Shown piece after piece: positions 20,570 to 32,723 of a stretch of 35,336 bases of DNA; the first letter of the stretch is position 1, and each line of letters opens with the position of its first letter. The translations under genes and the position numbers were made by a program. This DNA comes from Spirochaetales bacterium. GTDB lineage: Bacteria > Spirochaetota > Spirochaetia > DSM-27196 > SLST01. The stretch lies in NCBI GenBank assembly GCA_019038705.1, contig JAHOYX010000174.1, positions 1-35,336 of the forward strand, in the 5' to 3' direction. The notes under the pieces are model-generated. The model did not search any database. It saw only the letters and a list, made by a program, of their open reading frames with translations, and had not been told where the DNA came from.

Positions 20570-20599
20570 TTGACATCCGTATTGGGCTATTGGTACATT
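20570..20599 (+). promoter_or_regulatory. Promoter for rpsL-rpsG
   Basis: TTGACA (20570-20575), 18-base spacer, TACATT (20594-20599) with a TG one base upstream of the -10 box (extended -10). The predicted start is near 20606, giving about 32 bases of leader before rpsL. It is the strongest sign that rpsLG can be transcribed separately from rpoBC. Confidence 0.6.
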
Positions 20600-21704: not shown

Positions 21705-21817
21705 GGCCAAACCGGTCATCTCTACGAGATTGCTGGTGAGTGTGGGCGTGTGTGGCACGCATGTCCGCTTCATGGGTACGTAGTGCCCCAGGATTGATGG
21801 CAAGGTGGTCGTGCAGG

Positions 21818-22024: not shown

Positions 22025-23215
22025 ATGGCCAAGGAGAAGTTCAAGAGGACGAAGCCTCATATCAACGTCGGGACCATCGGTCACGTTGACCACGGCAAGA
22101 CGACGCTGACTGCTGCGATCACCATGCTCAGCAATGCCAAGTACGGCGGCAAAGTCATGAGCTATGAAGAGATCGACAATGCGCCAGAGGAAAAGGCGCG
22201 AGGAATCACGATCAACACCCGTCACGTCGAGTACGAGAGTGAAGAGCGGCACTATGCGCACGTTGACTGCCCCGGACACGCGGACTACATCAAGAATATG
22301 ATTACCGGCGCTGCACAGATGGATGGCGCAGTATTGGTTGTATCGGCTCCCGATTCCGTAATGCCGCAGACCCGTGAACACATCCTTCTTGCCCGACAGG
22401 TTGGTGTCCCTGCGATCATCGTTTATCTGAACAAGACCGATCAGGTTGATGACCCTGAGCTCATCGAGCTCGTTGAGGAAGAGGTTCGTGACGTTCTGAA
22501 CTACTATGAGTTCCCCGGTGACGAGATTCCTATCATCAAGGGCAGCGCATTTGAGGCGATGAACAATCCCACCGACGAAGAGAAGACCAAGTCGGTGATG
22601 GACCTCGTGGCGGCAATGGACAGCTACTTCCCGCTTCCGGAGCGTGCAGTAGACAAGGACTTCCTCTTGCCGATTGAGGACATCTTCTCCATTCAGGGAC
22701 GAGGCACAGTTGTGACCGGCCGAATCGAGCGGGGTGTTGTGCATGTTAACGACAAAGTGCAGATCATCGGCATCCGGGAAACCAGAGAGACCGTCGTGAC
22801 CGGCGTCGAGATGTTCAACAAGCTGCTTGATGACGGTCAGGCAGGTGACAATATCGGGGCGCTGCTTCGAGGCGTCGACAAGGATGCCGTGGAACGCGGC
22901 CAGGTTCTCGCGAAGCCGGGTTCAATCACCCCGCACACCAAGTTCAAGGGAGCGATATACGCTCTGAGCAAGGATGAGGGTGGACGTCACAGTCCGTTCT
23001 TCTCCGGGTATCGTCCTCAGTTCTACTTCAGGACGACGGACATCACCGGCACTGTTGACCTGCCGGAAGGCAAAGAGATGGTCATGCCTGGCGACAATAC
23101 TGAGATCATCGGCGAGCTCATTCACCCGATCGCCATGGAGAAGGGCCTCCGGTTTGCCATCCGTGAGGGTGGCCGGACTGTTGCGTCCGGCCAGGTTATC
23201 GAGGTTATAGAGTAA
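22025..23215 (+). CDS. tuf: Elongation factor Tu
   Basis: GTPase that brings aminoacyl-tRNA to the ribosome. 396 residues from ATG 22025, which has AAGGAGGG eight bases before it; upstream in-frame codons belong to the structured leader. G motifs: GHVDHGKT near 19-26 (P-loop), the switch I segment [21 protein letters not shown] near 81-88, and NKTD near 136-139, a variant of the common NKCD/NKVD. Domains 2 and 3 are intact: [13 protein letters not shown], then [18 protein letters not shown] and [18 protein letters not shown]. It lacks its usual neighbour fusA and is followed by rpsJ, as in treponemes. Confidence 0.98.
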
Positions 23216-23225
23216 GGGTGATGCG

Positions 23226-23270
23226 CAAAGCCTCGCCGGCCATTGGTCCGTGAGGCTTTGTCTTTCTTTT
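23226..23270 (+). terminator. Intrinsic terminator or attenuator between tuf and rpsJ
   Basis: CAAAGCCTC (23226-23234) pairs perfectly with GAGGCTTTG (23252-23260); the apical part can add CGGCC/GG-CCG pairs. The T-rich tail TCTTTCTTTT (23261-23270) follows directly. The tail abuts the GGAGG ribosome-binding site of rpsJ. It is the only hairpin in the window with a proper T-run. Confidence 0.8.
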
Positions 23271-23279
23271 GGAGGCAGC

Positions 23280-23588
23280 ATGGCGAGTGAGAGAATACGG
23301 GTTCGGCTTCGGGGTTTTGACACGGAGCTGGTGGACCAGAGCGCGAAGGCGATTGTCCAGACAGTTCAGAAGTCCGGCGCAGAAGTTGCCGGGCCAATTC
23401 CTTTGCCCACGCGTATTAACAAGTACACCGTATTGCGGTCTCCTCACGTGAACAAGAAGTCGCGCGAGCAGTTTGAAATGCGGACTCATAAGCGATTGAT
23501 TGACATCATTGAGCCGACTTCGGCCGTTATGGACGCTCTCATGAAACTTGAGCTTCCCGCGGGTGTAGACGTCGAGATCAAGCAGTAG
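23280..23588 (+). CDS. rpsJ: 30S ribosomal protein S10
   Basis: 30S head protein that also acts as NusE, the partner of NusB and of the NusG KOW domain. 102 residues, normal. Conserved: [20 protein letters not shown] near 5-24, [20 protein letters not shown] near 38-57, [18 protein letters not shown] near 59-76. The ATG at 23280 follows GGAGG, which overlaps the T-tail of the terminator upstream. It opens the S10 block. No separate rpsJ promoter fits in the 64-base tuf-rpsJ gap, so expression probably depends on read-through past the terminator or on a promoter inside tuf. Confidence 0.97.
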
Positions 23589-31668: not shown

Positions 31669-31851
31669 ATGGCACGGCTCAAGATCACCCTTACGCGCAG
31701 CCCAATTGGCGCAAAGCCCGCGCACAGGAAGACTGTGCGTGCGTTGGGCCTGAGGAAGATGCATCAATCGGTCGTGAAGAACGACGACCCGGCGATTCGC
31801 GGGATGATTCGATCGATCACGCACATGGTTGAGTACGAGGAGATGAAGTAA
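31669..31851 (+). CDS. rpmD: 50S ribosomal protein L30
   Basis: Small large-subunit protein with a ferredoxin-like fold. 60 residues. [20 protein letters not shown] near 4-23 and [20 protein letters not shown] are the family signature, with [16 protein letters not shown] at the end. ATG 31669 directly follows the rpsE stop and uses the GGGGG at the end of rpsE as ribosome-binding site. Its TAA overlaps the ATG of rplO by one base. Confidence 0.95.
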
Positions 31852-32723
31852 TGGAGACGCTCAAGCCCCCCAAGGGAGCGACTCGACAGCGAAAACGACT
31901 CGGCCGGGGCAACGGAAGTGGGACCGGCACTACTGCGGGCAAAGGCACGAAGGGGCAGAACTCGCGGTCGGGCGGCGGTGTGCGTCCAGGATTCGAAGGC
32001 GGACAGATGCCGCTCTATCGTCGGGTCGCGCGTCGTGGATTCTCTAACTATCCGTTCAAGAAAGAGTACGTCGTCGTGAGTCTGGCTTCGATCGAGGCCC
32101 GTTTCAGCAGTGGCGACACGGTCAACATCGAGGCCCTGCGTGGTCACGGCCTGATCGGGAATCGGGATTCGCTCGTGAAGATCCTGGGCGATGGGGAAGT
32201 CAGCAAGAAGTTCACGGTTGTGGGCGTTCGTGTCTCCCGATCTGCAGCGGCTAAGATCGTGGCTGCAGGCGGAACCGTAGACAACATCGCCGGAAAGGAA
32301 ACCGCGGAGGCAAACCCGGAAGCAAGCCCGGAAGCAAGCCCGGAGCCCGAGGCAGAGCCGAAGAAGGCCGCGCCAAAGGCCGAAGTGAAGGCTGAGCCGA
32401 AGAAGGCTGCGGCAAAGACCGAGGTGAAGGCAGAGCCGGAGAAGGCAGCCCCTAAGGTCGAGGCAAAGCCAAAGCCCAAGAAGGCGGCGCCAAAGGCGGG
32501 AGAAGGGGAAGCGCCGGCCGTGAAGAAGGAGAAGGCAGCCGAGGCAAAAGCGCCCGCGAAAGCATCGGCTGAATCGAAGAAACCGGCCGCAGTGGAAGCG
32601 AAGGACCCAGATCAGGCCAAAGCCTCCGCTCCGAAAAAAAGCGCTCCAAAGAAGAGTGCGCCGAAAAAAGCTGAATCAGATGCTTCATCTGATTCGGACA
32701 CAGCTGAAAAGGACAGTAAGTAG
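31851..32723 (+). CDS. rplO: 50S ribosomal protein L15 with long Lys/Ala/Pro/Glu-rich C-terminal tail
   Basis: The L15 core (residues 1-148) binds 23S rRNA late in assembly: LKPPKGATRQRKRLGRGNGS, TTAGKGTKGQNSRSGGGVRP near 27-46, FEGGQMPLYRRVARRGF near 48-64. The core length matches ordinary L15 (about 145). Residues 149-290 are an added low-complexity tail rich in Lys, Ala, Pro and Glu, with a 13-residue repeat (AEPKKAAPKAEVK at 168-180, then 181-193 and 194-206, plus a partial copy), a SAPKK triplet near 259-273 and an acidic Ser/Asp end. The tail is in frame with the core and carries no stop. It resembles histone H1-like tails and is likely disordered. ATG 31851 overlaps the rpmD stop; secY follows after three bases. 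Confidence 0.95.
   Translation: METLKPPKGATRQRKRLGRGNGSGTGTTAGKGTKGQNSRSGGGVRPGFEGGQMPLYRRVARRGFSNYPFKKEYVVVSLASIEARFSSGDTVNIEALRGHGLIGNRDSLVKILGDGEVSKKFTVVGVRVSRSAAAKIVAAGGTVDNIAGKETAEANPEASPEASPEPEAEPKKAAPKAEVKAEPKKAAAKTEVKAEPEKAAPKVEAKPKPKKAAPKAGEGEAPAVKKEKAAEAKAPAKASAESKKPAAVEAKDPDQAKASAPKKSAPKKSAPKKAESDASSDSDTAEKDSK
32352..32507 (+). repeat. 39-base tandem repeat within rplO
   Basis: Three full units (32352-32390, 32391-32429, 32430-32468) and a partial fourth encode 13-residue repeats of the form AEPKKAAPKAEVK. Synonymous differences between units show they are not recent perfect copies. A 12-base unit encoding EASP repeats lies just upstream. Confidence 0.75.
32671..32697 (+). other. 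Hairpin in the 3' end of rplO, before secY
   Basis: GAATCAGATG (32673-32682) pairs perfectly with CATCTGATTC (32686-32695) around CTT, extended by two pairs including a G-T. It ends 29 bases before the secY ATG and encodes the acidic ESDASSDS part of the L15 tail. No T-run. Confidence 0.5.

Follow-up and report, generated by a model that had tools for sequence, protein, structure and literature searches.

In E. coli, attenuation by ribosomal protein L4 depends on a long structured leader, an upstream hairpin and mimicry of the L4 site in 23S rRNA (PMC10931766, PMC10578931). Terminators located inside translation-related operons are known as well, and in the ribosomal protein-RNA polymerase operons of Methanococcus maripaludis such internal terminators have been measured to set the expression ratios (PMC10450193). 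A third system, the rimP-leader, has a terminator whose stem sequence is fixed but which lacks a sensor domain; it has been proposed to act as an autoregulatory element (PMC2965389).

Here we analyse the region between tuf and rpsJ in a window of 35,336 nucleotides, this being the whole stretch of DNA under study. It belongs to a metagenome-assembled spirochaete genome (G000) that is 64% complete. To our knowledge, the regulation of ribosomal protein genes has been little studied in this phylum. RpsJ comparison assigns it to Spirochaetales: among named records the best matches are Spirochaetales metagenome-assembled genomes (91-92% identity), and other genomes of the same genus and family match at 90-98%. 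The gene order in the window is rpsL-rpsG-[532 nt]-tuf-[64 nt]-rpsJ-rplC, followed by the spc and alpha genes. Further downstream (31851-32723) the L15 (rplO) frame encodes 290 amino acids and carries a long C-terminal tail rich in Ala, Lys, Glu and Pro, which is absent from typical L15. The features of the tuf-rpsJ region are as follows, the promoter-like site being a possible start of the transcript:

20570..20599, + strand: promoter-like site TTGACA-18-TACATT with TG before the second hexamer, upstream of rpsL (consensus match only)
22025..23215, + strand: tuf (EF-Tu), directly upstream of rpsJ (open reading frame; single copy in relatives)
23216..23279, + strand: tuf-rpsJ spacer, 64 nt (sequence; spacers of relatives)
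23225..23261, + strand: 16-pair hairpin of 12 + 4 pairs with a C.C mismatch and an AUU loop, stem core GCCTCG/TGAGGC (fold, conservation, covariation in 21 related hairpins)
23262..23270, + strand: U-rich tail CUUUCUUUU, predicted release zone (sequence; T enrichment and terminator scores in relatives)
23271..23275, + strand: rpsJ Shine-Dalgarno (SD) sequence GGAGG (sequence; GGAGG aligned in relatives)
23280..23588, + strand: rpsJ (S10), ATG at 23280, heading the S10-spc-alpha block (open reading frame; relatives)

Both parts of an intrinsic terminator, a stable G+C-containing hairpin and a U-rich tract right after the stem, are present in the window, the tract being missing in some relatives (f3). 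The 64-nt spacer folds at -27.6 kcal/mol (z = -2.49), and 3 of 200 shuffles fold equally well. Between the tuf stop codon and the stem lie 9 nt, and between the stem and the rpsJ ATG 18 nt; the tail ends 9 nt before the ATG and directly abuts the SD sequence (23270/23271). The original prediction, made from the window alone, had placed a hairpin with a T-rich tail shortly before the rpsJ ATG, the tail reaching the ribosome-binding site, and its coordinates and geometry were right, as was its statement that no promoter fits into the 9-nt gap between terminator and rpsJ. Its count of nine pairs holds for the uninterrupted Watson-Crick run, but the full stem is longer. A d'Aubenton-Carafa-type score of +9.9 was obtained for the window hairpin; roughly 1% of shuffled spacers score in this range. 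A simple terminator scan of the window did not list the hairpin, apparently because it considered only loops of 3-8 nt and allowed no interrupted stems, and an Rfam search with the hairpin gave nothing credible. The same hairpin persisted and dominated its flanks in a fold extended by about 115 nt into tuf and 50 nt into rpsJ, with no alternative pairing to the 3' end of tuf.

The same prediction had suggested an L4 attenuator like that of E. coli. This was not borne out, since the stem starts so close behind the tuf stop codon, there is no long leader and Rfam has no match. The window shows neither a long, structured 5' leader nor an additional hairpin preceding that of the terminator, and L4 as a regulator of the E. 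coli type is not supported. Regulated read-through of some other type is possible.

For the comparison with relatives, rpsJ loci were collected from 80 named records and 30 further spirochaete genomes and the tuf-rpsJ spacers were extracted. The set compared comprises 85 distinct spacers of 40-100 nt, 81 of them from spirochaetes and four from other phyla (L104, L106, L109, L111), and the rpsJ-rplC spacers of the same loci served as controls. Such a comparison had been put forward in the original prediction as a check. Its outcome is a folding hairpin (z < -2) in 80 of the 85 spacers (median z -3.85), as against 9 of 55 control spacers, with a stem that covaries and a U tract that is not constant. 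Terminator scores above 0 were found for 29 of the 85 spacers, compared with 1.2% of shuffled spacers (core shuffled, SD end kept) and none of 53 rpsJ-rplC spacers; as the sequences are related, P-values are not to be taken literally, and spacer sequence differs greatly between families. T accounts for 60% of the six bases before the SD sequence; the figures are 28% over the entire spacer and 36% for the control position.

Covariation was assessed in 21 hairpins from families f1 and f4-f8 and their relatives, picked by the GCCTYR stem core, so that the fixed core is partly a selection artefact while the covariation of the outer and inner pairs is not. In this set 92.2% of the cells pair, compensatory changes occur at 9 of 15 pairs, and double changes are seen in 52 cells, compared with 19 in shuffles. 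Pairing falls to 35-53% when the partner strand is slid by one to three columns.

The constant part among relatives is the hairpin, and the U tract is variable. Strong U tracts occur in f8 (Alkalispirochaeta and kin), where terminator scores are 10-58, and in f7g8. The window and several Sphaerochaetaceae also have one, the sister genus g2 has a weak one, and f3 genomes with short spacers have none. Several families have stems of approximately -20 to -30 kcal/mol without a U tail (L023, L025, L028, L038), most of the longer spacers (L017, L034, L035, L037, L090, L091) have no terminator-like hairpin, and three loci with very short spacers (8-22 nt) have no hairpin. Among relatives, the median gap between stop codon and stem is 11 nt and that between stem and ATG 17 nt; half of the spacers have 15-22 nt between the end of the stem and the ATG. 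With ribosome footprints of the usual size, these distances should usually leave room for the hairpin between one ribosome finishing tuf and another beginning rpsJ. A hairpin is also present in the spacers of two Acidobacteria (L104, L106), in both with a common AACTGTTCTTTAAAGGCAAAA stretch after it, and a tuf-rpsJ hairpin may thus exist outside spirochaetes. As an intra-operon terminator the hairpin would be of an already known kind; its conservation across the phylum is unusual.

Wherever both genes were found in relatives, tuf lies directly upstream of rpsJ, and 31 of the 32 relatives with a tuf match have one tuf, the exception (G017) having two partial matches on different contigs; given the incompleteness of G000, its own tuf copy number is uncertain. 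EF-Tu is present at more than four copies per ribosome (PMC8530515), so here the upstream product is needed in excess from a single gene. The two genes are co-directional, and no promoter was seen between the terminator and rpsJ. In the window, no promoter match of at least 9/12 occurs between 22303 and rpsJ, and the final 700 nt ahead of rpsJ contain none either there or in the f8 lineages with strong terminators. A promoter in the 3' end of tuf had been named in the original prediction as evidence that would speak against it; in the window and the strong-terminator lineages the scan gave no consensus match inside tuf or the spacer. It is therefore probable that S10-operon mRNA is made by polymerases that have run through the hairpin, in support of the earlier proposal that the S10-spc-alpha block depends on read-through.

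From these sequence comparisons we consider it rather likely that the hairpin is a partial intrinsic terminator within a tuf-S10-spc-alpha superoperon, giving more tuf than S10-operon mRNA. RNA polymerase that has moved past tuf would make the 16-pair hairpin and the U-rich tail, and part of the complexes would stop near 23266-23270, leaving a tuf-only mRNA. The remaining polymerases would read on and produce mRNA for S10 and the ribosomal proteins that follow. Since there is a single tuf gene and several EF-Tu are needed per ribosome, the fraction terminating at the hairpin would set the ratio of EF-Tu to ribosomal proteins, and a terminator stopping most, not all, polymerases after tuf would deliver the EF-Tu excess. 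We infer termination at the hairpin, its efficiency, and stoichiometry as the reason for it.

Several observations stand against a partial terminator. Some groups (f3 and the sister genus g2) keep the hairpin with a weak or absent U tract, so termination may not be its only role; the strong terminator predicted in f8 would starve the S10 operon unless read-through were helped; and the three loci with very short spacers manage without a hairpin. At convergent gene ends of two relatives the median best terminator score is about -33 to -35, with crude gene calls, which suggests that E. coli-type intrinsic terminators are not dominant there and that the tuf-rpsJ site is not weak beside them; that it would be weaker than the full terminators of the same genomes finds no support in these scores. 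The main text of a Borrelia Term-seq paper (PMC10319736) does not mention tuf or rpsJ. If right, the partial terminator would give a testable answer to the question of how several EF-Tu per ribosome are made from one tuf tied to a ribosomal protein operon: terminator strength should match the EF-Tu ratio needed, and approximately 80 natural variants can be compared.

The hairpin could instead be a regulated attenuator, at which a factor (a ribosomal protein such as L4 or L3, NusA, NusG, or the ribosome trailing on tuf) shifts the fraction of read-through so that the output of the S10 operon follows a signal. The essential genes downstream have no promoter match before them, the predicted terminators are strong in f8 and f7g8, the stem starts approximately at the edge of a ribosome on the tuf stop codon, and the GCCTYR core stays fixed in f1 and f4-f8 although the outer and inner pairs covary, which resembles the rimP-leader terminator (PMC2965389). 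However, part of this fixity stems from the way the 21 hairpins were chosen, and there is no conserved sensor or alternative structure beside the hairpin, which is separated from the tuf stop codon by 9 nt, dominates its flanks and has no Rfam match. Moreover, the doxycycline-induced genes of Borrelia, whose hairpin is weak, include tuf and S10-operon genes together, at similar values (PMC9524633), and we regard regulated attenuation as fairly unlikely.

Two further roles may be considered for the hairpin. That it shields tuf mRNA against exonucleases at the 3' end, or is cut by a ribonuclease, with tuf mRNA exceeding S10 mRNA post-transcriptionally as a result, would agree with the hairpin being more widely conserved than the U tract and with the tail-less stems mentioned above, but T is enriched exactly between stem and SD sequence, well over the control, and pure stability would not need it; we find this role very unlikely. 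An element of translation that insulates or exposes the rpsJ ribosome-binding site, with no part in transcription, seems more improbable still. In its favour, the stem in half of the spacers ends just clear of where an initiating ribosome would sit, the tuf SD sequence of Sphaerochaetaceae is likewise adjoined by a hairpin, and the control spacers also have some T before the SD sequence. Against it, most rpsJ-rplC spacers of comparable length have no such hairpin, so that ribosome-binding sites in this operon do not carry one as a rule.

A conserved RNA element separate from the hairpin was found upstream of tuf as a by-product of the partial-terminator analysis:

21707..21808, + strand: conserved RNA ahead of tuf; CCAAACC...AAGGTGG core, apical part long and variable (pattern, comparison)

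In relatives across Spirochaetia the motif CCAAACC-R-(variable stem-loop)-A-GGTGG lies 110-400 nt before the tuf ATG. It was found in 43 of the 63 named spirochaete loci with enough sequence, compared with 3 of 637 control windows; the CCAAACC matches of L034, L035 and L058, by eye EF-G coding sequence and left out of the alignments, are still within this count if less than 450 nt from tuf. The motif also precedes tuf in L042, L067, L068, L074, L136-L165 and L167 (G096). Under strict filters, a covariance model of the motif matched 54 of 296 Spirochaetota genomes, with few exceptions at a single site in each. All 30 best matches fetched are on the tuf strand, 150-280 nt ahead of the gene, and the further matches checked also adjoin tuf; a second match in G300, antisense in a carA-like gene, was rejected. 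The leader in the window was found by pattern, the model giving no match in G000. The base pair flanking the core covaries (46 of 52 paired, 27 expected), and a search of Rfam 15 with the tuf leader returned no credible match.

Most Sphaerochaetaceae have a promoter match approximately 45-70 nt upstream of the leader motif. Their leader contains an invariant GACCTCTGGA able to pair with either an upstream GGTTCCAG or the tuf SD sequence, and a further hairpin abuts the latter. Within this invariant segment, ACCTCTGG occurs also in domain VI of 23S rRNA beside the sarcin-ricin loop, with AGGTGG nearby in G011 (L181); a stretch of this size may be shared by chance, and rRNA mimicry by the leader, although possible, was set aside. 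In parts of f2-f5, f7 and f8 a strong promoter match lies between the leader motif and tuf. Two promoter-like sites flank the leader RNA in f8 relatives (L120, L128, L129 and their kin L076), the strong one (12/12) being that between leader and tuf, so that some tuf transcripts would lack the leader. By eye, this second promoter follows terminator strength in a loose trend (f8 and f7g8 strong), but f3 contradicts it and no link is claimed.

The tuf leader RNA is a candidate for a new cis-regulatory RNA of the tuf-S10 superoperon, that is, of the main ribosomal protein operon in the phylum that includes the syphilis and Lyme spirochaetes. Judged by sequence, it would be a better candidate than the hairpin at 23225 for feedback control of the superoperon, and it is more surprising than the latter. 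The two RNA elements might even be linked, the leader sensing part of the translation machinery, for instance a ribosomal protein or EF-Tu (in some families a segment can pair with the tuf SD sequence) and terminator read-through depending on whether the transcript carries the leader; we hold this to be quite unlikely.

Returning to the described systems, the spirochaete site resembles the E. coli S10 leader attenuator in that a terminator hairpin upstream of rpsJ must be passed by polymerase for the S10 operon to be transcribed. Unlike its E. coli counterpart it has no long leader, upstream hairpin or mimicry of the 23S L4 site, and it follows tuf at 9 nt instead of lying in a 5' leader. With the internal terminators of M. 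maripaludis it shares the setting, a terminator-like site in a translation-related operon where more of the upstream product is needed. The genes are different, however, archaeal termination needs no hairpin of the E. coli type, and the effect was measured there whereas at tuf-rpsJ we infer it. The rimP-leader terminator is likewise short, has a stem of unusually fixed sequence and lacks a larger conserved sensor, and it serves an operon related to translation and transcription. Its core is GGGc...gCCC, whereas that of the tuf-rpsJ hairpin is GCCTYR...RRAGGC, and the rimP terminator lies in a 5' leader, whereas the tuf-rpsJ hairpin lies inside the operon.
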